DNA from: Salinibacter grassmerensis
GTDB taxonomy: Bacteria > Bacteroidota > Rhodothermia > Rhodothermales > Salinibacteraceae
Direction of reading: 5' to 3'
Length of the DNA: 64,000 nt
Assembly: GCF_947077765.1 (NCBI RefSeq)
Contig: NZ_CAMTTF010000004.1
Location: 124,001 to 188,000 of the forward strand
Part shown: positions 8,543 to 51,087 of the stretch, piece by piece
Layout: every line of letters begins with the position of its first letter
Numbering within the stretch: position 1 is the first letter of the stretch
Made by a program: the position numbers and the translations under genes
The notes under the pieces: model-generated
What the model saw: the letters and a program-made list of their open reading frames with translations, nothing else
Database searches by the model: none
Told to the model about the DNA's origin: nothing

Positions 8543-9544
8543 TCAGTACTCACGCGCCTGCAGACGATCGAGGAGCCAGTGGAGCGCCTCCGCTGCGGCC
8601 GTGTCCGGGAGGAGGTGCAGATGGTCTCGGGCCTCCTCTGTGTACGTGCGGACTGCCTCCCGGGCCTCCTCGAAAATGCCAAGCTCCGCCATCCGCTCAC
8701 GGGCCTCCGGCACGTCGTCCACCGGAAGCCCCCCGTCGGTCACGAGACGTGCGAACCAGTCGTGCTCCCTCCCCTCGGCACGCTCCAGGGCGCGCAGGGT
8801 CAGGAACGTTTTCTTGCCCTGCACGAGATCGCCCCCCACTCCACGCCCCCACTCCTCCTCATCGTCGGCGGTGAGGTCGAGCAGGTCGTCCTGAATCTGA
8901 AAGGCCCGTCCCACCAGCCGGCCGGCCGTGCCGAGGCGATCACACTCGGGCGCCGGGGCCCCTCCGATGACGCCCCCCAGCTCGAACGCGGCCGAAAGGA
9001 GTGCCCCGGTCTTGCGGTCGATCATGTCCAGATAGGCCTCCACCGTCACCGCGTCGTCGGTCTCGAACGACGCGTCGAGGGCCTGGCCGGCACAGAGCCG
9101 CTCCACCATTGGGTGGTACACTGCGTAGAGGGCCTCTGCGTCCGCTCCGTCCACCTGGCCCAGCAGGTCGTAGGAGAGGCCCATCATGAGGTCTCCCGCA
9201 AGGATCGCCGTACCGGGGTTCCATTTCGCGTGCACGGTTGCGCCCCCCCGTCGCTCCTCGTCTTCGTCCATCAGGTCGTCGTGGACGAGCGTAAAGTTGT
9301 GAAACACCTCCACGGCGAGGGCGGCCGGCAGCGCCCGGTCGACGGACGTGCCGTACGACTGGGCCACCAGGAGAAGCAAGATGGGGCGCACACGCTTCCC
9401 GCCGGCCCGCAGCACGTGCTCCACGGCGTCGTAGAGCGAGGCGGGTGATCGCTCGTCCACCACCGCCGGCAGGGCCTCATCGATGCGCGCCCGCAGCGCC
9501 GCCACACGTTCATCGGACGACACGCTCTGCGTGGAGGAAGCCAT
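8543..9544 (-). CDS. Polyprenyl diphosphate synthase (trans-isoprenyl chain elongation)
   Basis: All-alpha isoprenyl diphosphate synthase of 333 residues. It condenses isopentenyl diphosphate onto an allylic diphosphate. The first Asp-rich motif is VHDDLMDEDEERRG and the second is FQIQDDLLDLTADDEE; GGKRVRP and the FHNFTLVHDD context are also present. It could make geranylgeranyl diphosphate for carotenoids or a longer quinone side chain; sequence reading alone cannot separate these. The ATG at 9544 was chosen; another in-frame ATG lies at 9577. ispH, from the same pathway, is about 3.5 kb away. Confidence 0.92.
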   Translation of the reverse strand: MASSTQSVSSDERVAALRARIDEALPAVVDERSPASLYDAVEHVLRAGGKRVRPILLLLVAQSYGTSVDRALPAALAVEVFHNFTLVHDDLMDEDEERRGGATVHAKWNPGTAILAGDLMMGLSYDLLGQVDGADAEALYAVYHPMVERLCAGQALDASFETDDAVTVEAYLDMIDRKTGALLSAAFELGGVIGGAPAPECDRLGTAGRLVGRAFQIQDDLLDLTADDEEEWGRGVGGDLVQGKKTFLTLRALERAEGREHDWFARLVTDGGLPVDDVPEARERMAELGIFEEAREAVRTYTEEARDHLHLLPDTAAAEALHWLLDRLQAREY

Positions 9545-9595
9545 TGGGGAATCGGGGTCAGCCAACGTGCTCAACAATCGTGCTCGGTGCAGCCC

Positions 9596-10234
9596 CTAGC
9601 GCTCAAGGGCATCCAGCGCCTCCTCGATGCGCCCGAAGACCTCTTCGATCCCTCCGGTCCCGTCCACCGGGACGAGCAGGTCTCGCTCTTCGTAGTACGT
9701 AGCCAGCGGCTCCGTCTCCTCGCGGTACACGTCGAGCCGGTTCTGGATGGTGTCAGGCTCGTCGTCGGAACGCTGGACGATGAGGTCCGAATCTACGTCG
9801 TCGGGGGGCGGGTCATGGTCGAGGTGATACGTTTCTCCCGTTTCCTCGTGGACCCGGCGCCGACTGAGCCGGCGCACGAGCACATCGTCGGGCACCTCCA
9901 TGCTGAGGACGGCGTCGAGGGGCGTCTCGTTCGACTCCGAGAACTCGGTCAGCCACTCCGCCTGCTGGTCGGTACGCGGGTAGCCATCGAGCATGAAGTC
10001 GTCGTGGCCCTCGTCGGCGATGGCCTGTTCGGCGAGATCACGGACCAGCGCGTCCGGCACCAGCTCCCCCGCGTCGATGTAGGACTTGGCCTTCGTGCCA
10101 AGCTCAGTCTCCTGCGCCATGGCCTCTCGGAGGATGTCTCCGGTCGAGATTTGGGTGATGCCGTGGCGCTCTTCCAACAGCCCGGCCTGCGTGCCTTTTC
10201 CGGCACCCGGCGGGCCAAAAATGATCAGTCGCAT
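9596..10234 (-). CDS. adk: Adenylate kinase
   Basis: Interconverts ATP plus AMP with two ADP. The 212-residue protein has the P-loop FGPPGAGKGTQAGLL at its start, AMP-site elements STGDILREAM and LDGYPRTDQQAEW, and a long LID domain (VHEETGETYHLDHDPPP) that lacks the four zinc Cys found in some relatives. The ATG at 10234 begins MRLIIFGPPGAGKG, the normal family start. It is in the leftward run just upstream of the polyprenyl synthase gene. Confidence 0.95.
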   Translation of the reverse strand: MRLIIFGPPGAGKGTQAGLLEERHGITQISTGDILREAMAQETELGTKAKSYIDAGELVPDALVRDLAEQAIADEGHDDFMLDGYPRTDQQAEWLTEFSESNETPLDAVLSMEVPDDVLVRRLSRRRVHEETGETYHLDHDPPPDDVDSDLIVQRSDDEPDTIQNRLDVYREETEPLATYYEERDLLVPVDGTGGIEEVFGRIEEALDALER

Positions 10235-10808: not shown

Positions 10809-10865
10809 GGGGCAGAAAGGGTCGTAAAACAGATTAGTCGAAAAGGCCTGGCGCCTGGGTGCCCA

Positions 10866-11384
10866 CTACGCCTCTATATCTGTATCGGGCGCGGAAGTGC
10901 GCGTCTCGGAGGCGCCCGCCTCGTCCACCGCGGCCGAGGCGGAGCGGGCCGAGGGGCCCTCATCCGACGCGGCCTGTTCTCCACGAAGAGACTCCAACAG
11001 GTTGGACGGCGGCATCAGGGTGGGCTTCGTCACGCGGAGGGTCACGATGATCAGGATGAGCGCCACCGACACCGCGAGGAATCCCCAGAACGGATGCCCA
11101 AGCAGCCACCCCACCCCCAGTGCCACGGTCGTCAACGAGAAGAACGCGGCGAAGAAGGCAAACACGGCGACCGTGAGCCCAAGCGCCAGGTCGTTCTTAA
11201 ACGCGTCGAGCCGCTCCTCCACCTCCAGAATCGCAAGGTCGGCCCGCAAGTCAATCCACTCTCGGAGGTCCGTGAAGAGCCCCTGTGTGTGGGCCGCGAT
11301 GCGACTCACCTTGCCGCCGTCGGGGGACTCCTCCACGGGGCGTTCGGCGTTCGGGGCCGACGGGCGGTCGTCGAGGGACTCCAT
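10866..11384 (-). CDS. Phage-holin-family (holin-X/YqjE-like) membrane protein
   Basis: Membrane protein of 172 residues from the ATG at 11384. An amphipathic segment (LREWIDLRADLAILEVEERL) precedes two hydrophobic hairpin segments, LGLTVAVFAFFAAFFSLTTV and FWGFLAVSVALILIIVTL. The tail is polar. This arrangement is that of the chromosomal holin-X/YqjE family, which is not a phage lysis gene despite the name. The longer open frame to 11525 is rejected as a start because its extra residues are not acidic or helical like the rest. Confidence 0.7.
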   Translation of the reverse strand: MESLDDRPSAPNAERPVEESPDGGKVSRIAAHTQGLFTDLREWIDLRADLAILEVEERLDAFKNDLALGLTVAVFAFFAAFFSLTTVALGVGWLLGHPFWGFLAVSVALILIIVTLRVTKPTLMPPSNLLESLRGEQAASDEGPSARSASAAVDEAGASETRTSAPDTDIEA

Positions 11385-17092: not shown

Positions 17093-17179
17093 GGCGGTGT
17101 GGTGGAATTGGCAGACACGCGGGATTCAAAATCCTGTGGGGTTTGTAGCCCCGTGTGGGTTCGAGTCCCACCACCGCTA
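17093..17179 (+). tRNA. Phage-borne tRNA-Leu(CAA)
   Basis: A complete cloverleaf can be drawn. The acceptor is GGCGGTG/CACCGCT with a terminal G-U pair. The D arm GTGGAATTGGCAGACAC is close to the host copy. The anticodon stem is CGGGA/TCCTG with loop TTCAAAA (anticodon CAA). A long class II variable arm (GGGG...CCCC) and a T arm GTGGG-TTCGAGT-CCCAC follow. The CCA end is not encoded, whereas the host gene encodes it. It has the same anticodon as the gene split by the prophage and probably replaces it in the lysogen. It differs from the host gene in acceptor, variable and T arms, so it is not a recent copy. Confidence 0.95.
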
Positions 17180-17368
17180 CTTCTTCGCCACGGTCTTCGC
17201 TGCGTGCTCTCCAACGTTGCCCAAAGCGTAGATCCCTGCCGTCCACTTTACAAGTTCAACCCAAAGCTCCGGCGGCAAGATACCGACTGTTAAAAAGGTG
17301 GTCGCCGATACGAAGACAATTAGCGTTACTTGGAGCTTTCTCGACTTTAGTTTTTCGGTGTAGTCCAT
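17177..17368 (-). CDS. Small membrane protein, holin-like
   Basis: A 63-residue protein with two hydrophobic stretches: LQVTLIVFVSATTFLTVGIL (about 13-32) and a weaker WTAGIYALGNVGEHAAK near the end. A short charged N-terminus (DYTEKLKSRK) precedes them. Size and topology suit a holin, but no family motif was recognised. It is the last gene of the leftward late operon, and its TAG overlaps the 3' end of the oppositely directed tRNA by 3 bases. An unusual hairpin (AGCGG...CCGCT with inner GGGC/GCCC) lies in the 85-base gap upstream. Confidence 0.5.
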   Translation of the reverse strand: MDYTEKLKSRKLQVTLIVFVSATTFLTVGILPPELWVELVKWTAGIYALGNVGEHAAKTVAKK

Positions 17369-22354: not shown

Positions 22355-24187
22355 TTAAGATCTATCGGTTCGTCCCTTTCTGCGGTCGTCTTGTTTTGTG
22401 GTTTCGAAAGAAGTAACTATGTCTCTTCCCTCTGTCCGCGTACTTCCGGTTATGTTAATGTTCATATTTTGAGTAGTGCTGGTTGCCCCTGCTCCTGTCG
22501 TTTGCGTTACAGCCGAAGCCGCCGACGCTCCCGACGTTGCTGCACCCGCCGACGACGTTGCTGCTCCTAATCCTCCACCGCCACCGATAATACTTTTAAA
22601 GCTTGAAGCAAAAGAGGTGCTGCCGATACCAAGTACGCTTAAAAGTGCCGACGCTATAACCGCCTTTGCGATAAGGGCGATAAGTTGCTTTACAAGCCCT
22701 TTTATGATCTTCTTAAACGAGTCCAAGAGGTTTTCCCCTTCAACAATAGCGTCTGCGATAGCACCGCCCATTTGCTCCGAAAAGGCAAAAACTGCTTTTT
22801 TTCCAAACGCTTTTATCCTTTTTCCAAGCTGAAATATCATACCACGAAGAGGATTAAGTTTTCTCTTTAAGCGGTCAACTTCTTTACCGTAGTTTTGAAT
22901 ACCTTTCATTTTTCCTTCCGGAAGAAAGTTGCCAATACTATTATCTCCGGTGTCAAGGCTTGCTTGCCCTGCCCCTTGAACTTTAGAAGCGGGTGCTGCG
23001 GGGCTTGGAAGTTGTCTTGTTGGTGCTTCAAAAAGGTCGCTGTCTTGGTCAACGCCAAAGTCCCGCTCTCCGGTGTCTGTTGATCCTGTGGCGTTTTCCA
23101 CAAGCTCTTCGCCGTGGGCACCACCGAGGTCTTTCATATCTTCGGAAGACTCTTCTAAGGCGTCGTCCATCTGTTCAACGCTCTGTTTCATACTCTCCCA
23201 ATCGGGCGTTCCGGCGCTTTCGGGGAAGAAGCTTTCGAGGTACTGCAAAGCGTTAATAACGCCTTTTGCAAGCGCTTGGAAGATCCGAACTATGCCGTCG
23301 ATAGCTTCAACCAGCACAAAGCCAAGGAAATACCCCGCCGCTGCCGTCGCGTCGTGAAGCGCTGCAAAGGTGCGAATAAGAAAGTCAAGTGCTCTAAGGA
23401 TAGCGGGTATATTATCGACAAAGCCCCTTGAAGCATCGATCATAGACGGAACCCACGTCTCTGCAAAGTCGGCAAGCTCCGGTATAACCTTCTCTACTTC
23501 TTGCGCCATAGACTTCAAAGCCGGAATAACCGTGTCGGCAAGAAGGGGGCTCATTTCCTTCACAAACTGCCTCTTCAAGTTTTCTGCGGCGTTGTTAAGG
23601 TCTTTCATTCCGGCTTGAACTGCCGCCGATCCTGCCCCGTCAAGCTCGTTAGCAAGCTGCATAGCCTTCACAGCAAGCCCCGCTGCCCCTGCTAGTGCGG
23701 CACCCGCCGTTAGTGCGGCTGCTCCAACCCCTGCTATCGCTGTTCCGGCGACTGCTGTTGCGGCTGTTGTTCTGCCTAGTGTTGCGGAAAGCTTTCCGGC
23801 TGCTTCGCCGATATCTCTTCCCATATCTTCTTCGATTACTCCGGTCATACCGACCGCTTCACCGACGCCTCTTCCGACTCTTCCTGCACGGTCTGTATCG
23901 ACGTTTACTTCGGCGTTTACGTCCCTGCCGTCTATGTCGTTAAGAGCCCTGTCGAGTTGTTGTACTTCGTCTTTTGCCCCGTCTACGTCTCCTTCCATAG
24001 ACGAAAAGTTTCGGGCAAAAGCACGGGCAAGCCTTTTCGTTGATCGTTTTAAGTCTTCGGAGTCGTCGGTTACGTCTGCCATTTGCTCCCCCGTATCCTC
24101 TACGGTGTCCCCCGCAGACTTCATCTTCCGTTCGAAGCTAGAAGTGTTTGCCGTTAAGTTTGCTTGTAGAGCGTCTAGTTGTGCCAT
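22355..24187 (-). CDS. Tail tape measure protein
   Basis: A 610-residue protein that sets tail length and helps DNA entry. The N-terminal 110 residues are charged helix (DALQANLTANTSSFERKMK), like other tape measures. There is a Gly/Ala hydrophobic segment AGTAIAGVGAAALTAGAALA near residues 142-172 and a second hydrophobic segment LIALIAKAVIASALLSVLGI near 499-522. The C-terminus ends in the family-typical NMNINITGS...SFETTKQDDRRK. It follows the frameshifted chaperone gene. Its length suggests a medium-length siphovirus tail. Confidence 0.9.
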   Translation of the reverse strand: MAQLDALQANLTANTSSFERKMKSAGDTVEDTGEQMADVTDDSEDLKRSTKRLARAFARNFSSMEGDVDGAKDEVQQLDRALNDIDGRDVNAEVNVDTDRAGRVGRGVGEAVGMTGVIEEDMGRDIGEAAGKLSATLGRTTAATAVAGTAIAGVGAAALTAGAALAGAAGLAVKAMQLANELDGAGSAAVQAGMKDLNNAAENLKRQFVKEMSPLLADTVIPALKSMAQEVEKVIPELADFAETWVPSMIDASRGFVDNIPAILRALDFLIRTFAALHDATAAAGYFLGFVLVEAIDGIVRIFQALAKGVINALQYLESFFPESAGTPDWESMKQSVEQMDDALEESSEDMKDLGGAHGEELVENATGSTDTGERDFGVDQDSDLFEAPTRQLPSPAAPASKVQGAGQASLDTGDNSIGNFLPEGKMKGIQNYGKEVDRLKRKLNPLRGMIFQLGKRIKAFGKKAVFAFSEQMGGAIADAIVEGENLLDSFKKIIKGLVKQLIALIAKAVIASALLSVLGIGSTSFASSFKSIIGGGGGLGAATSSAGAATSGASAASAVTQTTGAGATSTTQNMNINITGSTRTEGRDIVTSFETTKQDDRRKGRTDRS

Positions 24188-24225: not shown

Positions 24226-25058
24226 TTATTTGTGTTCGTCCCAATCGTATTCTTCCGGCGATATGTGGGCGTCTGCGTGCTCTGTTCCGTCGAACCCAAG
24301 TAGCTTATCCATCGACGGCGGCTGCTCTTCTGCCATCGACGTTGCGTGCATCATCTGTTCAAGCCTTGCAAAACGAGTGTCTTTTTTTAACTCTTGGTCC
24401 CAATAGGCTATAAGGCGGTGAAAGTAGATTCGGGGGGTTGCTTCCCAAAAGTCTTCTACGTCGTCGTATCCTACCTGAAAAGCCGTTTGAATAAGGCTAT
24501 GGAAGTCGTAGGTGTCGATAAGCCTGTCAACGGGGTCGCCCGTGTCTATCGGCTCTTCGTTTTCTCCACGGGCAAGGTGCCTATCTATGCTTTTTTTTGA
24601 CGGTCGCTAACTTCCCGCTCGTTGATGTACTCGTTGAACTTCTCTGCCTCTGTCTCTTCAAGATCCGATAGCCAAGCCCCAACGTCTTCGGGGGTAATTT
24701 CTTTTTCTCCGACAACCTCTTCGCTCATTTCGTCGGCTTCGGGGTCGTAGGTTACTTCAACCTCTTCGGCAGTAAAGTCCTTGCCCGCTCTCCTGTGCCC
24801 CTCTTCAAGGCAGTAGAACCACTGGTAAAGCACGAAGTCTGTGCCCCCTTGCGACGCTACCAAGTCCTCTTTATCCTCTTCTGAAAGCTCTTCAACGGAC
24901 TCTGCGCCTACCTCTTGAAGCTTCTCTTGCAGGGCGCTAGCCATTTTCTCCCTGTACTCCGAAGTGTTTAGCTCTTCCTGGATGTTCTTAACTACGTTGA
25001 AGTTATAAGAAACAGGGCGGTGTTTGCCGCCGATTTTAATAAAAGTTAGGTTATCCAT
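24226..25058 (-). CDS. Tail assembly chaperone, -1 frameshift product (G-T type)
   Basis: Long form of the tail chaperone, about 277 residues. Ribosomes reading CAA AAA AAA GCA TAG slip back one base at the A8 run (24591-24598) and continue AGC ATA GAT AGG. This frame is open for 121 codons down to TAA at 24226 and contains DFWEATPRIYFHRLIAYWDQ and ISPEEYDWDEHK. The extension has no start codon of its own upstream and reads as good protein, so frameshifting is the simplest account. Lambda G/GT-type chaperones between tail tube and tape measure genes do the same. Efficiency is unknown. Confidence 0.82.
24585..25058 (-). CDS. Tail assembly chaperone, short form (G type)
   Basis: Unshifted product of 157 residues, beginning DNLTFIKIGGKHRPVSYNFN, rich in Glu/Asp and mostly helical. 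TAG follows one codon after the A8 run. It lies 5 bases downstream of the tail tube gene and upstream of the tape measure gene, the fixed place for this chaperone in long-tailed phages. It is assumed to coat the tape measure during tail assembly. Confidence 0.8.
   Translation of the reverse strand: MDNLTFIKIGGKHRPVSYNFNVVKNIQEELNTSEYREKMASALQEKLQEVGAESVEELSEEDKEDLVASQGGTDFVLYQWFYCLEEGHRRAGKDFTAEEVEVTYDPEADEMSEEVVGEKEITPEDVGAWLSDLEETEAEKFNEYINEREVSDRQKKA
24589..24599 (-). promoter_or_regulatory. Slippery site for -1 frameshifting
   Basis: On the coding strand CAAAAAAAAGC with the zero frame CAA AAA AAA GCA. This contains the heptamer A AAA AAA, which lets both site tRNAs re-pair after a one-base slip. 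No strong pseudoknot was identified just downstream. Confidence 0.75.
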
Positions 25059-35972: not shown

Positions 35973-37406
35973 CTAAAAGAAGGGTCTGTTCATTTTGAAT
36001 CCACCCTTTGTTTGCTTGCTGTTTTCTTCGTCTTCGCTAAGGTGTTCGATAGCTTGGGAAAAGGCGTCTGCTAGGTCGTCGTGTTGTCCGTTCGGAAACT
36101 CTAATATGCCCTGCTTTTTGTCGAGCAAAAGAGTCGAGTAGCAGTCCGGATGCACGAATATATTTTTATCGTTTACAGACATTTTTGCTATCTTTGCTCG
36201 TGCAACCTTATCGCCCTGCACGTCTACTTCTTCGGCTGGAAGCCCGTTGCGCGTAAGAGCTTGTACTAGGCTTTTGCCGGAAGCCTTATTCTCTATCATT
36301 ATCGGGCAGTCGTATCGGGATATGCTCTGCAAAAGCTCCGGTAGTTCAAGCCAATCGAAGCCTACGTCGAGCACATAGACGTTACCGCTCCGGTCTTTTG
36401 CCGCTTTCACCCAAGCAGAAGCAGAGTTTTGTTCGTTCTCTGTGTAAGCTGCGTCTACGTGCAAGCCTGTATCAACTAGCTCCACAGAATCGGGCTTTCT
36501 CATCCCGAAAAGGTCTTCTTTCCAGATATTACCGGACTCCGGTGCTGGTCGCTGTTGGTACAGAGCGTTCCACTTGTAAGCCCCCTGCGTGCCTTTAATC
36601 TGCTTCAAGTCCTCTACGTCGTACCTTTCGGGGCACAAGGCTTCCCCTGCCTCTCTGTCTGTCCGAACGACGTTGCAGCCGTCCGGATAGTCGATCTCGT
36701 TTTCTTCTTTAAGCGCCGGAAAGCTAACGATCCTCCAACCCTCCGGTCTGTCTGCTTCTCTCTCTTGCTGTAAGAGCGTTCCTGCAAGGTCCTTTCTGTG
36801 CCAACGTGTATGGATTACGATAACAGAAGCGTTCGGCTCTAAGCGGGTGTAAAAGTCGCTGCTAAACCACTCCCGCAAGCTTTCCCGCTTTGTGCGGCTG
36901 AAAGCGTCTTCTATGCCCTTAATCGGGTCGTCTATAATAGCAAGGTCGAACCCCTTGCCTGTGATCGATCCCCCAACAGAGGTTCCAAAGAAGCCGCCGT
37001 TTTTATCTGTCTTCCAGTCGGTTTTTGCTTTTGTGGATTTAGATATACTGCCGTCCGACCGCCTGAAAAAGCGCCGTGCCTCTTCGGAGTGGTCGGAAAC
37101 AAAGTCTGCGTTGTAGCCGACGATACCGACGTTCTTGCTTGGGTTGCGGTACAAGTAGTACGCAGAAAAGAGTTGTGTAGCCGTTAGAGACTTGCCGTGT
37201 CGAGGCGGCATAAACATCATAAGGCGGTCGTTTTTGCCTCTCTCGACCGCTTCAAGCTCTTCTACAACCCGCTCTATGTGGTCGTAAAACTTGTAGTCTG
37301 GAAAGACCTGCTTGATAAACTGCCGGAAGCTTTTCTTCTCTTCCTCTTCGGTAAGCTCTTCAAGCTCGTTTACTAATTTAGATTTGGCGTCTTCGTCGTT
37401 AAAGAT
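35973..37406 (-). CDS. Terminase large subunit, apparent non-ATG start
   Basis: Packaging motor ATPase-nuclease. Walker A is MPPRHGKSLTATQ, Walker B is FDLAIIDDPIKG, and the arginine/coupling region is VIVIHTRWHRKDLAGTLL. Nuclease acids appear in HVDAAYTENEQNS, IMIENKASGKSL and GQHDDLADAFSQAIEH. The first ATG (37220) lies only a few codons before Walker A. Yet the preceding 62 codons encode the expected family N-terminus (SFRQFIKQVFPDYKF, VEELEAVERGKNDRL). No ATG, GTG or TTG occurs in that stretch. The frame follows directly after the TerS TAA, so initiation at ATC (37406), or readthrough of that TAA, is proposed. Confidence 0.85.
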   Translation of the reverse strand: MFNDEDAKSKLVNELEELTEEEEKKSFRQFIKQVFPDYKFYDHIERVVEELEAVERGKNDRLMMFMPPRHGKSLTATQLFSAYYLYRNPSKNVGIVGYNADFVSDHSEEARRFFRRSDGSISKSTKAKTDWKTDKNGGFFGTSVGGSITGKGFDLAIIDDPIKGIEDAFSRTKRESLREWFSSDFYTRLEPNASVIVIHTRWHRKDLAGTLLQQEREADRPEGWRIVSFPALKEENEIDYPDGCNVVRTDREAGEALCPERYDVEDLKQIKGTQGAYKWNALYQQRPAPESGNIWKEDLFGMRKPDSVELVDTGLHVDAAYTENEQNSASAWVKAAKDRSGNVYVLDVGFDWLELPELLQSISRYDCPIMIENKASGKSLVQALTRNGLPAEEVDVQGDKVARAKIAKMSVNDKNIFVHPDCYSTLLLDKKQGILEFPNGQHDDLADAFSQAIEHLSEDEENSKQTKGGFKMNRPFF

Positions 37407-37415
37407 ATCGCTTAA

Positions 37416-38153
37416 TTAACCTTGAAATACTTTCTTTATGTCGTTAATAACTTTGCGCTGCGCGTCTTTGTCTGCGTGCTGCTCCAAAGAGGTTTTGAGC
37501 ACTTCGATAAGTTTATCTACCTCTTTCATCGTAAGAGCGTGGTTAGCTTCAACGTCTTTCTTTGCTTTCCACGTCTTCGTTATGTCCCTGCTTACTTTAA
37601 GAAGCGTTTCTTCGGTTACGTTTTCTGCGTCGTCAAAGCGCTCTAGAAGATTCTGCTGTACGGCTTTCTGCAAAGCCATTTCGTCTTCGATGCTGTCAAG
37701 CCGTTCGTCGTTTAAGAACCGCTCCATCTTTTCTTGAAGCTCGTTGTCGCTGTCCTCTTGAATTTTGTAGATCGGCTTTAAGTAGTCCTGCACAGGTGGG
37801 TTTTCTTTTGTCCCGCCGCCGTGCATACGGCACGTGTCGAACCCGTTTCTAGCAGGGTTGCGGCACCGCTTGCCTGTGTTCTGCGTGGTGGCGGTGCAAC
37901 GCTTAACGGGTTGCTTCCCCCCTTTTCCATCGGGGATCATAATGTGATCTTGGGATTCGGGGTAGTCCTTATAGCCCCTGGACTCGTGCCGCTTTTCGTA
38001 GAGCTTGCGCCTTTGCTCTTGGCTTAAGTGCTCTTTGCCCGGATCTTGCGCAAACTGCCTGTTCAAAGACTTCGCTTCGTCTTCTGTGTAAACAGAGTCG
38101 AAGTTCTCCCAATCAACGTCTTCGATATTATTTATTTTGCTAAGATCTGCCAT
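37416..38153 (-). CDS. Terminase small subunit-like protein with Cys/His motif
   Basis: A 245-residue protein. A central zinc-type motif (RCTATTQNTGKRCRNPA, then CRMHGGG, about residues 84-113) is found in many phage terminase-linked proteins. The C-terminal half is coiled coil (ALTMKEVDKLIEVLKTSLEQ). It is immediately upstream of, and in the same frame as, the large terminase. A TerS role is inferred from order. Its start overlaps the stop of the preceding small gene (TAATG). Confidence 0.7.
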   Translation of the reverse strand: MADLSKINNIEDVDWENFDSVYTEDEAKSLNRQFAQDPGKEHLSQEQRRKLYEKRHESRGYKDYPESQDHIMIPDGKGGKQPVKRCTATTQNTGKRCRNPARNGFDTCRMHGGGTKENPPVQDYLKPIYKIQEDSDNELQEKMERFLNDERLDSIEDEMALQKAVQQNLLERFDDAENVTEETLLKVSRDITKTWKAKKDVEANHALTMKEVDKLIEVLKTSLEQHADKDAQRKVINDIKKVFQG

Positions 38154-39177: not shown

Positions 39178-39205
39178 AGCCCCCCGGCGACGGGGGGCTT
39201 TTTTT
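39178..39205 (+). terminator. Terminator of the lipoprotein gene
   Basis: AGCCCCCC (39178-39185), 6-base loop, GGGGGGCT (39192-39199), then a run of T (to 39205). The A-rich other side allows weaker action on leftward transcripts as well. Confidence 0.9.
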
Positions 39206-39632
39206 ATTCGTCTATGATCGCTTCCGAGGGTTCAAGCAAAAACACTAGCTTTTCCTTGTGCCCTGTCGCTTCGGCTGTTGTCTTCGGGCACCACTTCGTA
39301 TCTGTCTCCGGTTTGTCCATCTTGCCAAGATCCCACACTAGACGCCCCCCACCTTTGAAGTAGCAAACGTAAAGCGTGTCGTCTATGCCGTCTTTGCGGT
39401 TGTGCCTCTCTGAAAGCGCCTTCATTTTCTTCGCTTCCAGAATCCAAGTGTCGTACTTGCCTTTCGGCACGTTGCGGTGTTTGATCTCGACTTGTGCCGT
39501 TTGTCCCGCTACTTCAAGTTCTGCGTCGTAAATCGATTTCGGGTCGTCGGAAAAGTCTATGTCCGCTTCGTTCCAGTTTTCTTTAAAGCGCTCTCTTCCT
39601 TTCTTCTCTGCCTGTGAAAAAGAATCGTTAAT
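39204..39632 (-). CDS. PD-(D/E)XK-like nuclease, apparent ATT start
   Basis: A 142-residue protein if started at ATT (39632). Conserved-looking core: SIYDAELEVAGQTAQVEIKH (D...E.K-type nuclease core), then YDTWILEAKKMKAL and DDTLYVCYFKGGGRLVWDL. The only usual start is a GTG at 39470, which would delete the core strands. No ATG or TTG exists upstream of it in frame before a TAA. ATT lies where an A-rich leader (ACTAAACTAAA) ends. It could be a Holliday-junction or recombination nuclease; function inferred from fold pattern only. Confidence 0.6.
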   Translation of the reverse strand: MNDSFSQAEKKGRERFKENWNEADIDFSDDPKSIYDAELEVAGQTAQVEIKHRNVPKGKYDTWILEAKKMKALSERHNRKDGIDDTLYVCYFKGGGRLVWDLGKMDKPETDTKWCPKTTAEATGHKEKLVFLLEPSEAIIDE

Positions 39633-39684
39633 TTTAGTTTAGTTGATAGAGCGTCTTCCGCTCCTGTTTGTGGTTCTATGTTTT

Positions 39685-40062
39685 TTATGCTCCGATGAAG
39701 TAACCAATTATAAGACCCCCTGCCACTGTTACATATGACCGAATCTTCTGATATAACTTTTGCTCTTCAAGGCGGCTGATTCGTTCGTCTCTTGCTTTGA
39801 TCCTTTCGTCTTTGATATCAAGCTGTTTTTCGGTTAGCTGCAAGATCGTAGAGTCGCGTAAGGCTTTCTCTTCGTAAAGCTCTATTTGACGGGCTTGCTC
39901 TTCGATAAGACTGTCTTGTAGCTCGACGCGTCGCTTCCGCTCTTCAACGCTTTCTTTCAAGTTGCGCAACGCTTCTGTCGAGACAGTTACGCTATCCGTC
40001 TGCGCTTTTGCAGGGCACGTAAGAAAGGCTACGATAAGCAGAGCAGCGAAAACTTTATTCAT
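39685..40062 (-). CDS. Secreted coiled-coil/TM protein, spanin-like
   Basis: A 125-residue protein. The signal peptide (MNKVFAALLIVAFLTCPAKA) precedes a long coiled coil (about 30-100; RRVELQDSLIEEQARQIELY) and a C-terminal hydrophobic segment SYVTVAGGLIIGYFIGA. This resembles periplasm-spanning lysis proteins. It overlaps the preceding membrane protein gene by 8 bases, and both follow the endolysin gene, making a lysis cassette. Confidence 0.6.
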   Translation of the reverse strand: MNKVFAALLIVAFLTCPAKAQTDSVTVSTEALRNLKESVEERKRRVELQDSLIEEQARQIELYEEKALRDSTILQLTEKQLDIKDERIKARDERISRLEEQKLYQKIRSYVTVAGGLIIGYFIGA

Positions 40063-40414
40063 AACTGTTTGCCCACTTTTTTAGCTGTTCTGCGTCTTCG
40101 TCTGCGGTCCTATCAACGCTTTCAACGTCTTCTCTTAGCCTCTCTGCACGCCGCTTAGACTGTTTTATCTTCTTTTCGGTGTTGTCCTTCTCTTGCTTTG
40201 CTTCGTCTATGCGGTCCTGTGTGCTTCTGCTTTCGCTTTTTAACTTTCGGTCGGCTTTCTGCCAAGCATCGACCCAACTCTTTTGCTTTCCGAAAGCTAG
40301 ATAAAGAGCCGCCAAGAGGATAATAGCAGCCGATACAGCCGCTCGTTTTCCGAAGAGATAGTAGGCAAGGGCAACTGCCCCGCCCGCTGCTAAGACGTAG
40401 AGAAGTGCTTTCAT
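40055..40414 (-). CDS. Two-TM coiled-coil protein, holin or inner spanin-like
   Basis: A 119-residue protein with two N-terminal hydrophobic segments (ALLYVLAAGGAVALAYYLFG and AVSAAIILLAALYLAFGK) and a long charged coiled coil after them (DEAKQEKDNTEKKIKQSKRR). It overlaps the endolysin stop by 4 bases and the next gene by 8. Either a holin with a cytoplasmic tail or an inner spanin; the sequence does not decide. Confidence 0.6.
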   Translation of the reverse strand: MKALLYVLAAGGAVALAYYLFGKRAAVSAAIILLAALYLAFGKQKSWVDAWQKADRKLKSESRSTQDRIDEAKQEKDNTEKKIKQSKRRAERLREDVESVDRTADEDAEQLKKWANSYE

Positions 40415-40785
40415 ATCTGTGCTAAGTGGACGTGCCCCAACTCCGGATATGGAATATTTTCTTCAACGGGCAAGTCGGTTAGGTCGATAGCTCTTGATAG
40501 GCTTTGCGGGTCTTTGTCCGGTACAACTATGTCGGCGGCTTTACCCTTCTTGTGCAAGCTACCGGAGACGCCGCCTACGGCTTTGTTAAGCTCTTCGGAC
40601 CGGAACCCGCTTGTAACTTGCACCGGACGGTTTAAGAAGCTCCGTACAGGCTGCAAGACTTCAACACATAAGCTTCGCAAGTTTTGAATTTGCGAAGCGT
40701 TAGGGGTGTTGTCGATCTCTGGATATTCTGCGGAGCCTGTGAACTCCTGTAAGTCGAAGTTTTTAGTAAGTCGTAGTGTATCCAT
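40411..40785 (-). CDS. Peptidase M15-type endolysin
   Basis: A 124-residue zinc peptidase cutting peptidoglycan cross-bridges or stems. Motifs: NFDLQEFTGS at the start, VTSGFRSEELNKAVGGVSGS, SLHKKGKAADIVVPD (first His and Asp ligands) and GHVHLAQI (last His). This is the short M15 domain (DacB/VanY-like C-terminal family) used as lysin by many phages. No signal peptide, so it needs a holin; candidates are the two genes just downstream and those at 17.2-17.7 kb. Confidence 0.9.
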   Translation of the reverse strand: MDTLRLTKNFDLQEFTGSAEYPEIDNTPNASQIQNLRSLCVEVLQPVRSFLNRPVQVTSGFRSEELNKAVGGVSGSLHKKGKAADIVVPDKDPQSLSRAIDLTDLPVEENIPYPELGHVHLAQI

Positions 40786-40788
40786 TTA

Positions 40789-40935
40789 TTATCTGTTGTC
40801 GATGCCCCAAAGCATAACTTTTTCTTCGTACTTCTCCACTTTGGGCAAACGTTTAGAGTTTTCGTCTACGAGGTCGTATGCTTCGTCAAATTTGCCTGTG
40901 GTTACGTCTTCGTTCTGAATAGAGACGTAAACCAT
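40789..40935 (-). CDS. Small phage protein of unknown function
   Basis: A 48-residue reading frame MVYVSIQNEDVTTGKFDEAY...MLWGIDNR. An in-frame ATG at 40959 would add eight residues; the leader TAAACAAAAT before 40935 resembles other phage starts. It lies a few bases upstream of the endolysin gene. Acidic, no motif. Confidence 0.5.
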   Translation of the reverse strand: MVYVSIQNEDVTTGKFDEAYDLVDENSKRLPKVEKYEEKVMLWGIDNR

Positions 40936-40986
40936 ATTTTGTTTACTTTCAAGCTCCATAGTTCTTTGATTTGTTTTGCGCCCTCT

Positions 40987-41253
40987 TCATTCCTCGTTTA
41001 AGTATCGCTCTATGCGCTCTTCTTTTGCTTCTTGGTCTATCTGCTCCATAATCTTTCGGGCTTGCCGCCGATAGTACTCGTTCTCTCGACGGATCTGCTC
41101 CGACCGTTCAAGCCTTTCGTCTCCAAGTATGCTAACTACGCGTTCGTAAGTAGTGTCGAGCATATCTGCTATTCGAGACGGGGGCATACCGTCTTCAAGG
41201 TGCAGGTTTAAAACCCGCTTGTCATCGAAGTAGTGTTCTTTTTTCTTTCCCAT
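40987..41253 (-). CDS. Small helix-turn-helix-like phage protein
   Basis: An 88-residue protein. The stretch RVLNLHLEDGMPPSRIADML plus TTYERVVSIL fits a helix-turn-helix, followed by a charged helix (RRQARKIMEQIDQEAKEERI). Start overlaps the upstream stop (TAATG). Possible regulator of late genes; no family recognised. Confidence 0.6.
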   Translation of the reverse strand: MGKKKEHYFDDKRVLNLHLEDGMPPSRIADMLDTTYERVVSILGDERLERSEQIRRENEYYRRQARKIMEQIDQEAKEERIERYLNEE

Positions 41254-41471
41254 TAGTTTAGGTTGATTCTGAAAGAGTGATAAGGTTGCTTCGTGCCGAC
41301 TCTATCTGTCGAGTGCAAGTAATAGCTTGTGTTTTGCTTCAAGTCGGTCATTTCTATGCCGATAAACGTTTTCCCGTCTGCGTGCCTTTGTGCGTCTTGA
41401 AAGCCTACGCTCTCGTCTCTTACAACTTTTAGCGTCTCCTGCATTATTACTTCTTTGGTGTATCTGTCCAT
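41253..41471 (-). CDS. Unknown small phage protein
   Basis: A 72-residue protein (MDRYTKEVIMQETLKVV...YHSFRINLN), probably a small alpha/beta domain with a central strand TFIGIEMTDLKQNTSYYL. Coupled to the next gene by a TAATG overlap. Function unknown. Confidence 0.6.
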   Translation of the reverse strand: MDRYTKEVIMQETLKVVRDESVGFQDAQRHADGKTFIGIEMTDLKQNTSYYLHSTDRVGTKQPYHSFRINLN

Positions 41472-41472
41472 A

Positions 41473-41661
41473 TTAGTTTTTTGCCTGACTAAGAATTGCC
41501 CTTTTTCTCAGCGCTTTAAGTTTGTATATAAGTTCTTGCCGTTCAATACCGCACTTTCTCATATACCTAAGCTCGTGATTACAGAATACTTCACTCCTTT
41601 CAAACATTCTTTCGTCGTCGAATTGATTTGCGTATTCTATGTCGCGCGACGTAAATAGCAT
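41473..41661 (-). CDS. Unknown small phage protein
   Basis: A 62-residue protein, mostly helical (RKCGIERQELIYKLKALRKR), with two Cys. It lies between the exonuclease gene and another small gene with almost no spacing. No motif recognised. Confidence 0.5.
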   Translation of the reverse strand: MLFTSRDIEYANQFDDERMFERSEVFCNHELRYMRKCGIERQELIYKLKALRKRAILSQAKN

Positions 41662-41667
41662 AATATA

Positions 41668-42219
41668 TTATTGTTGTTTTGCATTTCGTATAAGCCGGAC
41701 CACTTGAAGGGCGTCCGATAAAGCGGTGTGGTCAACGGGCTCTTCTATTCCGGCTCTTTCTAAACACTCGTCTAGCGTCGGGGGGCGCTCTTCCTGTAGC
41801 TTGTAGTAAAGCGTCGTAGGGTCGAGCACTCTTGCACGGACGCAGAAAGCGTCGGTAAAGTGAGGCATTTGCTCTTTTAAAAAAGGAATATCGAAAGTCG
41901 CAGCGTTTTTGCCTGCTACTGTTATGTAGTCTCTGCCGAACGGACTATCGCAAAAGCCCTCGTCTACAAGCCAACCTTTAAGGCTAGCTGCAAAATGCTT
42001 CGGCTTAACAGAAGGCAGGTCGGAGTTAAGCAAGCCGTTTTCACTTGCCATTTCCAGAGACCGCCGTTGCCCTATAACCGTGTCGTTGTGAATCTGCCGT
42101 TGGTAGGTGGGCAAGTCTTCTATCGGGTCGCCGTTGTCTATAACTGCTCCTACTTCCAAGATGCTGTGCTCTTCGGGGTCAACTCCGGCTGTCTCTATGT
42201 CGAGGGCTAAGTAGCTAAT
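41668..42219 (-). CDS. DEDDh 3'-5' exonuclease, apparent ATT start
   Basis: A 183-residue RNase T/DnaQ-type exonuclease if started at ATT (42219). Exo I SYLALDIETAGVD carries the catalytic Asp and Glu, Exo II is KNAATFDIPFLKEQ, and Exo III DHTALSDALQVV supplies His and Asp. The first TTG (42159) and any later start would remove Exo I. No ATG, GTG or TTG lies between the upstream gene's TAA (42237-42235) and Exo I. The ATT gives the natural family start (M)SYLALDIET after an A-rich leader. It probably trims DNA ends or recycles host DNA. Confidence 0.82.
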   Translation of the reverse strand: MSYLALDIETAGVDPEEHSILEVGAVIDNGDPIEDLPTYQRQIHNDTVIGQRRSLEMASENGLLNSDLPSVKPKHFAASLKGWLVDEGFCDSPFGRDYITVAGKNAATFDIPFLKEQMPHFTDAFCVRARVLDPTTLYYKLQEERPPTLDECLERAGIEEPVDHTALSDALQVVRLIRNAKQQ

Positions 42220-42234
42220 TCTATTTTGGTTGTT

Positions 42235-42522
42235 TTAACTGCGGTGCGATAGGCTTTTGTTATTTAGCTTGCTGCAAAGCTCTGGATCTTCTGCCATAGC
42301 AAAGAGGGTCGTGTAAGCCCTGATTAGCTGCTCTTCCGAAGCGTTGTCTTTGAAAGGTCTGCTTACCTTTTCGTCCCACTGGCAATCCGTAGCGTAGTCG
42401 AAAGCTATACGCTTAAAGCAGTGGTCGAGGTAAACGGGGTAGCCGTCTTCTTCTTTTGCTTTGCGTGGCAGCACTTTTTGTGCAAGATTGTCGATTCTGT
42501 CGTTTAGCTCTTGGCGGTTCAT
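42235..42522 (-). CDS. Conserved small phage protein (HCF.RIAFD motif)
   Basis: A 95-residue helical protein. VYLDHCFKRIAFDYATDCQW followed by a C-terminal PELCSKLNNKSLSHRS is a pattern I associate with uncharacterised phage and bacterial proteins. No catalytic site assigned. Located just upstream of the exonuclease in the same frame. Confidence 0.55.
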   Translation of the reverse strand: MNRQELNDRIDNLAQKVLPRKAKEEDGYPVYLDHCFKRIAFDYATDCQWDEKVSRPFKDNASEEQLIRAYTTLFAMAEDPELCSKLNNKSLSHRS

Positions 42523-45524: not shown

Positions 45525-46346
45525 ATGGATCGCCCTTACTTCTTAGACGAGTTTCTTGAAAGCTTCGGCTTTTGGTTTAGGGTGCAGGACCACAACCCTT
45601 TTCCGAAGTTTGATAGCGGCTGGACAAAAGAGTTCGAAGAAGACGAGTACGACGGCACGCTTGGAGACCCGAACGATAGCGATTATAGACCGACGTGGAA
45701 GCGAAGTGGCGAGTGGGACGAAGACTTTCAAGAGCTTTGGGACTTTGCCGGAAACCACGGCATTTACAAAGGTGGAGAGTGGAGAATAAACCCTGCTTGC
45801 TATGAAGAGGAATGGGATTTTGACTTTATTGACCAAGAGTACAGTTACAGCCCCTCCACCGACTATCTGCTATCTAAGAACCCAGAGAAAAAGTTTTGGA
45901 CTCTCTTAGACCGGATAGAGGGAACGAGCGAAGAAGTGTTTTGCACCCTCCGGACCAAAGAAGGGGGTTTCGACCACGCTTCGATACCGGAGTTTCGAGA
46001 GGCGTACAACGACCACTGCTTCGAAGTAGAAGACAGTTTCGAGGTTGGAAGAGGAAAAACGTATCTTGCTTACGGAGTCAAAGGCGTTAAAGCCAAGGTA
46101 AACGGAACAGTGCTTGTGAAAAACGGCAAGGGCTACTTCGTCGGAGTCGAGCAAGAGAAAACAGGCGGCGAAGTCGTAAGCAAAAACGCAAAGGTGCTGA
46201 AAGGGGAAGTCCACCACGACACCTTAATGCCTATCCACGGAAGGACAGACTTTATAAAAGTCGCAGATGACGTTTCGGAGATATACGAGATAGCAGACGA
46301 CATATACGCAAACCACGAGATCCGCTATATGCAAAACAACTCTTAG
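45525..46346 (+). CDS. Unknown phage protein, member 1 of a tandem paralogue pair
   Basis: A 273-residue protein beginning MDRPYFLDEFLESF and ending IYEIADDIYANHEIRYMQNN. It is acidic and aromatic-rich, with no signal peptide or TM segment. The next gene shares both the first 8-10 residues and the last 20 in pattern (YFLDE...; Y.DI...NH.LRYI.NN). The central section (TYLAYGVKGVKAKVNGTVLV) is strand-rich. No family recognised. It lies between two terminators, apart from the replication gene, which suits accessory or host-takeover factors. Confidence 0.65.
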   Translation: MDRPYFLDEFLESFGFWFRVQDHNPFPKFDSGWTKEFEEDEYDGTLGDPNDSDYRPTWKRSGEWDEDFQELWDFAGNHGIYKGGEWRINPACYEEEWDFDFIDQEYSYSPSTDYLLSKNPEKKFWTLLDRIEGTSEEVFCTLRTKEGGFDHASIPEFREAYNDHCFEVEDSFEVGRGKTYLAYGVKGVKAKVNGTVLVKNGKGYFVGVEQEKTGGEVVSKNAKVLKGEVHHDTLMPIHGRTDFIKVADDVSEIYEIADDIYANHEIRYMQNNS

Positions 46347-46420: not shown

Positions 46421-47041
46421 ATGAACCGCCCTTACTTTCTTGACGAGTACATAAAACAGTTCACTTTGTCGGTAGGCAAAAGGGTAAAGTCGCCGGACGT
46501 GAACTTTCGAGAGTTGAAAAGTTGGCTTGGCAGAGCGTCCGACAGCGTTGTTGAACAGCCCGACAACTGGACTTACAAACAGAAAGACTTAACGCACGTC
46601 CCAAGCGGTTTCCGTAACGTACTCGACTGGGTAAGAAAAACAGGGATTAAGGGGCAAGTAGACCTTTTCGTAGATACGATAGACGGCAGTTACGACGAAT
46701 ACGGCGTATCGGAGATCGAAAAGCAAATAGAAGAGAAGTGCTGGCTTGCCGTCGAGAGAATAACCGTATCGGGAGAGGACTACACCGCCTACGGGCTAAA
46801 GTGGCTTCCGGAATACGAAGAAGGCATCGACCCGATACTAACCGATTGGGGAGACGACTACTTCGTTGGGCACTCCATTATGAGAGATAAACCCAAAAGC
46901 GAAGCGGCTTCCGTCTACGTTAGCAAAGACGATTTCGATAGCGTTGAGCTATATTCGGACGATCCTGGCGATATGTACGAGGACATAGTAGAACAGGTAT
47001 TTAAAAACCACGACCTGCGCTACATACGAAACAACTCGTAA
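46421..47041 (+). CDS. Unknown phage protein, member 2 of a tandem paralogue pair
   Basis: A 206-residue protein starting MNRPYFLDEYIKQF and ending MYEDIVEQVFKNHDLRYIRN. It is shorter than its upstream neighbour, mostly in the middle. Shared ends with diverged centres imply duplication followed by fast change. DYTAYGLKWLPEYEE matches TYLAYGVKGV in the first copy. The start at 46421 was chosen because it aligns with the neighbour's start. Function unknown. Confidence 0.65.
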   Translation: MNRPYFLDEYIKQFTLSVGKRVKSPDVNFRELKSWLGRASDSVVEQPDNWTYKQKDLTHVPSGFRNVLDWVRKTGIKGQVDLFVDTIDGSYDEYGVSEIEKQIEEKCWLAVERITVSGEDYTAYGLKWLPEYEEGIDPILTDWGDDYFVGHSIMRDKPKSEAASVYVSKDDFDSVELYSDDPGDMYEDIVEQVFKNHDLRYIRNNS

Positions 47042-48625: not shown

Positions 48626-49705
48626 CTATAAACTGTCCATCATATCTTCTAGGTCTCCTGCGTCGAGGTGGGCGTACATCGAAACGATTCGCCTTGAAGA
48701 CTGCCCCACCATTCTAGCTATTTTCTCGTACGAGTAGTCTTTTTTAACTAGCTCTGTAATAAACATATGCCGCAAGCTGTGGTTGGTCATTTCCTCGTAG
48801 CCGATTTCCGTTAAGAAGTGCCCTGTACGCCTAGACCAGTTCGAGCGGTCAACGTGCGTTTCTCTCTGTGGGCTTTCAAAGACGTAAGGGGTCGTTCCAT
48901 CGTTGTCTATTAGCTGTATCTCGTCCCATATGTGCTTTAAGGGGATTACCCTGTTTTTGCGCTTAAACTGTATCGTCGCCGTCCGGTTAGACTGGTTTAG
49001 GTAAGCGTACTTGCCCCTGTCCGTAAACGTTTTGTGCCAAGTTAAACGTATTACCTCTCCGATTCGAAGCCCCGCGTTTGCTTGTATCCATAGGGCTTTC
49101 CAAAGCCTGTCGTCTTCGTTGTATACGCGGTGCTTAATTTCTTTTTTGATCTCGTCAAACTCTTTTTGAGAGGGTACTTCTACGTCCGATTCCGGTTGCG
49201 GTATGTGGATCCGGCTAAATGGTCTACTGTCTATAACCTGTTGGTCGTGCAGCCAAGAAAAGAAGCTTGATAGGTGGCGCAAGTTCGTTTCTACTGTCGT
49301 TGAAGAAACCGACTGCAAGCGCCAGTACTTGAAGTCTCTTATGTGGTCCTCGTTGGGCTCTGCGGTTAAAATATAAGGGTCGATTCCCGATTCTTCTTCG
49401 ATCCAACGACCAAACATTTTTAGTGCAAGTCTGTCGCTGTTGATCGTATAGTCGGACAGTTCCCCCGCCCGTTCTTTCATCCGTCGAAGCTCTAAATAGT
49501 CTTCTTTCGCCTCTTCGAACGTCGTGTCTGCTAGGTCTTCCCCCCGTTCCAGTTTGCGGTAGTAGTCGTCCCACTTGCGCTGCTTTTTCTTTGCTTCGGT
49601 CTCTTCTTTTGTCTTCAAAGAAAAGCCGACTCGCTCTTTTTCGTCCTCTTTGGTTACGTAGGCTTGGTAGTAGTAGACGCCCCTTTTCGTGTAGATACTG
49701 GACAT
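48626..49705 (-). CDS. int: Phage integrase, tyrosine recombinase
   Basis: A 359-residue recombinase expected to catalyse integration at the tRNA-Leu core. The N-terminal arm-binding domain starts SSIYTKRGVYYYQAYVTKED; a SAM-like core-binding domain spans about 60-165. Catalytic residues: Arg in NAGLRIGEVIRL (near 212), Lys in RKNRVIPLKH, HSLRH (near 308-312), and the nucleophile Tyr in SMYAHLD (near 343). The usual GHSS box reads VGQSSRR, with Gln for His. It lies about 170 bases from the attR core. The dead integrase at 50165 is a clear relative. Confidence 0.93.
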   Translation of the reverse strand: MSSIYTKRGVYYYQAYVTKEDEKERVGFSLKTKEETEAKKKQRKWDDYYRKLERGEDLADTTFEEAKEDYLELRRMKERAGELSDYTINSDRLALKMFGRWIEEESGIDPYILTAEPNEDHIRDFKYWRLQSVSSTTVETNLRHLSSFFSWLHDQQVIDSRPFSRIHIPQPESDVEVPSQKEFDEIKKEIKHRVYNEDDRLWKALWIQANAGLRIGEVIRLTWHKTFTDRGKYAYLNQSNRTATIQFKRKNRVIPLKHIWDEIQLIDNDGTTPYVFESPQRETHVDRSNWSRRTGHFLTEIGYEEMTNHSLRHMFITELVKKDYSYEKIARMVGQSSRRIVSMYAHLDAGDLEDMMDSL

Positions 49706-50164: not shown

Positions 50165-51087
50165 ATGAGTTCGCTCTACCAGAAACGGGGCATCTTCTAC
50201 TACCAAGGCGAGGACGAAGACGGGAACCGCATCTAGAAGTCTTTGCGCACTCGGGATGAGGCTGGGGCGAAGGAGAAGAAAGCGAAGTTGGACGAGCGGT
50301 TTTCGTCGGATTTCCCTTTCACTCTCTCTAAGCTCATTGAGGACTATTTGGAGCACCGCCGCCGGAAGCGGGACCGAGATGAGCTGTCGGGTCGGACGGT
50401 CGGTTCTGACGAGTATGTTCTTCCCCTCTTCCTCAGTTGGGTTGAGGGCAAGTACGGAACGGTCTTCTCCGACGAGGTAGGCGAAGTCAACTTCTCAGCT
50501 TTCAGAGAAAAGCGGCTGAAAAACGTCTCCCCCACAACTGTCGGCAAAGATCTGCGCCACATCCAGTCGTTCTTCTCTCATCTCCGCCGGAAAGAGGTTC
50601 TTTCAAGAGGCCCGCTTACGCCTCGGCGAAATGGCAATGATGAAGTGGCGACGAGGTCTCGAGGATGTGAGCACGGGACACGCCCGGAACTACGTCTATC
50701 TTGCGCCTAAAGAGCAGACGCTCACGACTAAGTTCAAGCGGAAGTTGCGAGCAATCCCCGTCGGATAAATTTGGGATATTTTTGAACGTATGAAGGCGCA
50801 GAAATATCCTTCAGATACTTTCGTCTTCTCTTCTCCTGTGACTGACAGTCACCTCACCACTTCCACTCTCTGCCACCTGGAAGGACGAAGTGAAGAGGGT
50901 TGACGAACTCTCTCGCCCGTATACCTCCCCCTCCATTCGCCACCGGGCCGTGACGCATCTGCTTCGGCAGGGCGTCCCCGTCTACAAGGTCGGCAAAATC
51001 GTCGGGCACAGCTCGGAAAAAATCACGGAGCGCTACTCACACTTCATTCCCGGCGACCTGGAAGACGCAATGAGCCTTCTGGAATAG
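50165..51087 (+). pseudogene. Decayed tyrosine integrase from an earlier element
   Basis: Begins SSLYQKRGIFYYQGEDEDGN, parallel to the prophage integrase start. TAG at 50234 interrupts it after 23 codons; the frame then runs through DYLEHRRRKRDRDELSGRTV and GKDLRHIQSFFSHLRRKEVL. It shifts frame near 50600-50640, showing ARLRLGEMAMMKW (catalytic Arg region) in another frame, then a TAA, and ends in a third frame with HRAVTHLLRQGVPVYKVGKI, VGHSSEKITERYSH and GDLEDAMSLLE. Several lesions, so it is not functional. Its place beside the tRNA 3' end shows previous use of this site. Confidence 0.85.

Follow-up and report, generated by a model that had tools for sequence, protein, structure and literature searches.

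Probable AUU and AUC translation starts in the exonuclease, nuclease-like and terminase genes of a Salinibacter prophage

How is a phage gene translated when its frame holds no standard start codon ahead of the residues that its protein needs? The question is raised by a prophage of Salinibacter grassmerensis in a 64,000-nucleotide stretch of DNA (assembly GCF_947077765.1, contig NZ_CAMTTF010000004.1, positions 124,001 to 188,000 of the forward strand; hereafter the window). The guanine-cytosine (GC) content of the window is ~67%, falling to ~46-54% in a stretch from ~17 to ~51 kb that encodes integrase, terminase, portal, head and tail genes; this stretch is a prophage of ~32 kb within a Salinibacter-type genome. 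A preliminary description proposed that three of its genes, encoding a DEDDh exonuclease, a PD-(D/E)XK-like nuclease and the terminase large subunit (TerL), begin with ATT or ATC. We report that these proteins are probably translated from AUU 42219, AUU 39632 and AUC 37406, respectively, as suggested by the alignment of homologues for the exonuclease, by N-terminal length for TerL and by leader context for all three.

Results

Three prophage frames open without ATG, GTG or TTG

The coordinates and codons first given for the three starts were correct, and no ATG, GTG or TTG lies between the in-frame TAA and the region that has to be translated. The range quoted for them, 39204-42219, covers the exonuclease and the nuclease-like gene; TerL (35973-37406) falls outside it. 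The exonuclease locus comprises:

41668..42219, minus strand: DEDDh 3'-5' exonuclease (DnaQ/RNase T fold), 183 amino acids from the putative ATT start (PF00929, 1.4e-10; phrog_192, 4.5e-19; homologue alignment)
42217..42219, minus strand: ATT, proposed start of the exonuclease (8.3 bits in the leader model, 99.3rd percentile)
42220..42237, minus strand: A-rich leader and TAA of the upstream gene (42235-42237), from the sequence and the leader model
42235..42522, minus strand: preceding 95-amino-acid gene in the same frame, ending in TAA, read as an open reading frame with no Pfam or PHROG family match

The region reads TAA-AAC-AAC-CAA-AAT-AGA-ATT(42219)-AGC-TAC-TTA, and the earliest standard start in the frame, TTG 42159, lies past the catalytic DIET motif. 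Counted from the ATT, profile matches begin at residue 5 (Pfam RNase_T) and residue 3 (phrog_192), and the start-less part of the frame has a coding score of 11.0 nats in a self-trained codon-usage scan. The two best of six phage homologues, from the megaphages LR756508 and LR756511, align from the first residue of the query, and their ATG coincides exactly with the ATT: LR756508 starts ATG AAG TAT TTT TCA CTT GAT ATA GAA against ATT AGC TAC TTA GCC CTC GAC ATA GAG here, and LR756511 starts ATG AAA TAT TGT AGC ATC GAC ATA GAG at the same position. The remaining four match from query residues 4-5. An AlphaFold model computed without an alignment was poor (predicted local distance difference test, pLDDT, 33.3).

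The terminase locus comprises:

35973..37406, minus strand: terminase large subunit TerL, 477 amino acids from the putative ATC start (phrog_38, 1.4e-89, residues 12-463; PF03237; alignment)
37404..37406, minus strand: ATC, proposed start of TerL (6.3 bits in the leader model, 98.2nd percentile)
37416..38153, minus strand: preceding gene in the same frame, ending in TAA; candidate small terminase by position only (weak match to phrog_3678, function unknown)

Here the sequence reads TAA-TTA-AGC-GAT-ATC(37406)-TTT, and the earliest standard start is ATG 37220, directly before the Walker A motif (MMFMPPRHGKS). The start-less part scores 28.5 nats, and conserved TerL sequence starts ~39 codons ahead of this first ATG: among the best 30 of 1,810 matches, phage homology begins at query residues 24-36 in 28 records and at residue 57 in the other two, both from Faecalibacterium phage FP_Brigit. 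In a five-protein alignment, to which Tunturi_4 was too distant to contribute, FRQFIKQVFPDYKFY here stands opposite LWKFIRQVFPNYKFY of S-CBS2 ~36 residues ahead of the first ATG, and the S-CBS2 segment FIRQVFPNYKFY aligns with TerL upstream of that ATG. Listeria phage B054 (coding sequence start 888, match from 960) has 24 residues before the match, compared with 23 in the ATC-started protein; the corresponding lengths are 21 against 26 for Cellulophaga phi12:1 and 40 against 28 for S-CBS2.

The third locus comprises:

39204..39632, minus strand: PD-(D/E)XK-like nuclease, 142 amino acids from the putative ATT start (D-x12-E-x-K motif in the translation only)
39630..39632, minus strand: ATT, proposed start of the nuclease-like gene (5.7 bits in the leader model, 97.5th percentile)

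The start region reads TAA-ACT-AAA-ATT(39632)-AAC, the frame upstream of 39632 is non-coding, and the earliest standard start, GTG 39470, lies past the E-x-K motif; the start-less part scores 25.7 nats. No homologue of the protein was found in phages, 146 genomes, viral contigs or genome contigs, so the evidence for the proposed start consists of its leader, coding score and motif. The AlphaFold model computed without an alignment was poor (pLDDT 52.7) and Foldseek returned 0 of 183 matches at E<=0.001, so the nuclease assignment is by motif only. The expectation that an ATG of homologues would align with each ATT or ATC thus holds for the exonuclease, is replaced by N-terminal length for TerL and has no homologue to draw on for the nuclease-like gene.

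The ATT and ATC codons lie in an AUG-like leader context

The 18-base leader model was trained on 33 ATG starts of the prophage only, and its features are an A-rich segment from -17 to -6 and an A at -3. Such a signal fits a group without detectable Shine-Dalgarno sequences, as one study describes the Bacteroidetes, calling the Salinibacter ruber logo aberrant (PMC3155529). The preliminary description had likened the leaders to those of ATG genes, and the model bears this out, placing the three codons in the top 0.7-2.5% of the minus-strand ATT, ATC, ATA and CTG codons of the prophage. The median leave-one-out score of true ATG starts is 3.0 bits, compared with 8.3, 5.7 and 6.3 bits for the ATT, ATT and ATC. 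Under a stricter control, consisting of in-frame ATT, ATC or ATA codons no more than 8 codons from a true ATG, the exonuclease, nuclease-like and TerL scores are reached by 0/34, 2/34 and 1/34 codons. By both measures, all three codons have an AUG-like ribosome-binding context. Each gap between TAA and gene holds a single ATT, ATC or ATA, the proposed start, and the TerL ATC has the highest leader score among the 29 codons tested between the stop and 37331. The ranking is imperfect: the true ATG is the best-scoring of 17 in-frame codons in 13 of 33 genes and is within the top three in 22, and in both ATT genes an adjacent codon that is not start-like outscores the ATT. Local RNA folding at the three starts (-4.9, -6.1 and -4.7 kcal/mol) is unremarkable beside that of ATG genes (median -3.9).

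Start-less frames of this kind stand out in the prophage

We surveyed coding frames by codon usage, with a threshold and a sorting of flagged frames that were set after seeing the prophage. Six of its 36 frames were flagged, namely the three ATT/ATC genes, one tail-chaperone frame and two that were dropped because much of the 'missing' part (0.81 and 0.65 of its length) lies within another gene. Nine other phages, comprising five Salinibacter phages (171 frames; two of one species) and four others (214 frames), yielded 4 flagged frames of 385, none with a close upstream stop and a leader-fitted ATT or ATC. Two of these, M1EM-1 10836-11210 and Tunturi_4 9368-9679, we read as tail-chaperone frameshifts from their position before a tape-measure-size gene; M1EM-1 24785 overlaps another gene (0.71), and Cellulophaga phi12:1 4-918 is weak (5.1 nats). 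In 229.5 kb of host DNA, 2 of 179 frames were flagged, neither with a tight upstream stop and an ATT or ATC, and 103 frames from four further fragments of related genomes held no such start. The three cases among 36 prophage frames stand out, by a sorting made after the data had been seen. The idea of a lineage-specific start rule finds no support in these counts, with no such start in the five Salinibacter phages, the four others, the host DNA or the related fragments.

The fourth start-less frame belongs to a pair:

24585..25058, minus strand: tail-assembly chaperone, first half (gpG-like), ATG start (open reading frame and codon scan)
24226..24606, minus strand: tail-assembly chaperone, second half (gpGT-like), start-less, overlapping the end of 24585-25058 (codon scan)

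The gpG/gpGT arrangement is well known, and the second half, just upstream of a tape-measure-size gene (22355-24187), appears from its sequence to be an ordinary tail-chaperone frameshift, entered by a -1 shift at a run of eight A. This case shows that the scan detects real recoding and that a start codon can be missing for different reasons. Most of this second half would escape a plain gene finder.

Host infC itself appears to start at ATT

The infC gene encodes initiation factor 3 (IF3); the host protein shares 98% identity with its Salinibacter altiplanensis counterpart and 88-95% with those of eight more relatives including Salinivenus. The host gene reads ATT GCT GAC GTC GAT AAA before RVN. 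Among 30 infC loci read, 3 were unreadable, and in 25 of the other 27 loci of the order, tallied by eye, ATC or ATT followed by GCN stands at the start place; of the last two, one has an ATG elsewhere and one has neither. In several loci a stop lies so close upstream, within a few codons, that a standard start is precluded, and ATC stands at the start in 11/11 close relatives (partly overlapping the 30 loci). A non-AUG start appears to run across most of the Salinibacter order as if kept by selection. In addition, infC of a Desulfuromonas metagenome-assembled genome starts with ATA.

The infC gene is documented to start with ATT in E. coli and with ATC in Streptomyces, under feedback by IF3 (PMC5472188). 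The ATT/ATC pattern makes it very likely that the Salinibacter host initiates at AUU and has IF3 limiting it. A relaxed host IF3 was considered and, at the level of domains, rejected: almost the entire protein can be aligned with bacterial IF3 of solved structure, with no domain missing. infC was the sole host example of a non-standard start that we saw.

Alternative explanations

The best of the alternatives, which we still consider unlikely, is decay or sequence error, in which each ATG was lost by mutation or miscalled in the draft, so that the genes are not made or the ATT and ATC are not real. The genome is a draft of 19 contigs, and the prophage is single-copy, with no relatives for comparison. 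However, three changes would all have fallen on start codons in frames that are otherwise intact; across 27 prophage genes there are 2992 stop-making substitutions, compared with 81 that turn a start ATG into ATT, ATC or ATA, so that ~37 stops would be expected per lost start under random decay.

Less probable still is a start at another weak codon (GTA 37373 or TTA 37415) or at a late standard codon giving a shortened protein. In TerL, an in-frame GTA at residue 12 scores 2.7 bits and is compatible with the homology, which begins only near residue 24; yet the ATC outscores it by 3.6 bits. Shortened forms would drop DIET, E-x-K or everything ahead of Walker A, and in the exonuclease the homologous ATG sits on the ATT.

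Readthrough, by which TerL and the exonuclease would be made as fusions with the preceding genes, seems very improbable. Both upstream genes are indeed in frame and end in TAA 9 and 15 bases before the ATC and ATT. TAA, however, usually terminates translation strongly, the sequence following the stop resembles a leader in our model, homologous TerL proteins are annotated as separate, and no coding sequence precedes the nuclease-like gene in its frame. A programmed frameshift out of an overlapping frame is barely credible despite the start-less 24226-24606 with its eight-A slip site in the same phage, since the genes upstream of TerL and the exonuclease are already in frame and need no shift, and none of the three genes is overlapped by a coding frame that leads into it (overlap 0.0).

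Other features of the prophage

Further features at the prophage ends and within it are:

48626..49705, minus strand: tyrosine integrase of the prophage (phrog_1, 2.3e-38)
50243-50710, plus strand: second integrase-like N-terminal fragment adjoining the prophage, beginning DELSGRTVGSDEY and resembling the intact integrase
17093-17180, plus strand: tRNA-Leu(caa), at the prophage end opposite the integrase

The fragment is possibly a remnant of another insertion, judging from its sequence. Three prophage proteins share an NH(E/D)(I/L)RY(M/I) motif (45525-46346 and 46421-47041, plus strand; 41473-41661, minus strand), and the first two also both start MxRPYFLDE and look like tandem paralogues. 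Between phage genes, 32656-33330 and 42740-43189 (minus strand) encode what we take by eye, from their motifs, to be GIY-YIG- and HNH-like homing-type endonucleases. The portal had no close relative in 114 genomes, and neither the portal nor the nuclease-like protein had a match in phages.

Discussion

Several points weigh against translation from the ATT and ATC codons and its selection. The prophage has no relative close enough for a DNA-level comparison of the starts (41 genomes searched with TerL, 146 each with the nuclease-like protein and the exonuclease and 114 with the portal, besides viral contigs, genome contigs with the nuclease-like protein and phages by DNA), and other phages of the genus have no such starts, which leaves selection for ATT and ATC unproven. 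No Pfam or PHROG family and no fold match backs the PD-(D/E)XK assignment, and the shared nuclease theme could be chance, with three genes of which one is assigned by motif only. In the frame of the host infC a GTG lies 28 codons ahead of the ATT, and the infC starts are read by comparison of sequences.

Regulated use of the ATT and ATC starts, as the preliminary description had suggested, is nonetheless plausible because host infC itself appears to start at ATT. We propose that the initiator tRNA would read AUU or AUC with a third-position mismatch, the A-rich leader positioning the ribosome as before AUG genes of the phage, and that IF3 would reject most of these complexes and keep the protein level low. 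At TerL and the exonuclease, which lie 9 and 15 bases past a stop, ribosomes finishing the previous gene may re-initiate. No phage-encoded initiator tRNA was found, the tRNA-Leu at 17093 being the only tRNA gene. The low yield could cap the amount of DNA-cutting protein, both in the lysogen and during growth, and would make their synthesis sensitive to IF3 supply.

TerL presumably carries a nuclease domain; all three proteins would then be nucleases or contain such a domain, which suggests dose limitation. We offer IF3-limited dosing of nucleases as the purpose of these starts only tentatively. A bolder version, which we think rather unlikely, is that the phage gates only its DNA-cutting proteins by IF3: synthesis of nucleases and packaging proteins would stay repressed in the lysogen until, late in infection, IF3 runs short relative to ribosomes. 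The starts would then act in translation as both safety catch and timer, using the control that governs host infC. We infer initiation at ATT and ATC, the low yield, the control by IF3 and the reason for nucleases alike.

Known systems offer partial parallels. In E. coli and others, infC starts at AUU, AUC or AUA. It shares with the phage genes an AUU or AUC start, which is IF3-sensitive by mechanism; unlike them, it encodes a host fidelity factor under self-control, whereas the phage genes have no feedback reason or known IF3 dependence. In Streptomyces, IF3 represses the GTC-started sigR (PMC5472188). There too a non-canonical start keeps a gene scarce relative to its partner, but sigR combines GTC with a strong ribosome-binding sequence, in contrast to the ATT and ATC, A-rich leaders and three genes of a single phage seen here. 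Staphylococcus aureus has AUU-started cvfC1 and AUA-started ccpN and infC, likewise non-canonical starts that lower yield, seen there by ribosome profiling (PMC13009471); an extended Shine-Dalgarno sequence compensates in S. aureus, whereas Bacteroidetes have no detectable signal (PMC3155529). M13 gene VII re-initiates at a weak start just past an upstream stop and is IF3-sensitive in E. coli, where excess IF3 reduces use of this start and blocks M13 growth (PMC2268962). That pair was tested with reporters, whereas the 9- and 15-base gaps here only suggest re-initiation. No report of phage terminase or nuclease genes started by AUU or AUC was found among the papers listed from a limited open-access literature, judged mostly by titles and abstract openings.

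Gene finders take only ATG, GTG and TTG, by which genes of this kind are shortened or lost; TerL called from its first standard start would lose its first 62 residues. If the starts proposed here are true, start-less coding frames would provide a search signal in other phages, and IF3-gated starts would be a phage means of dosing nucleases.

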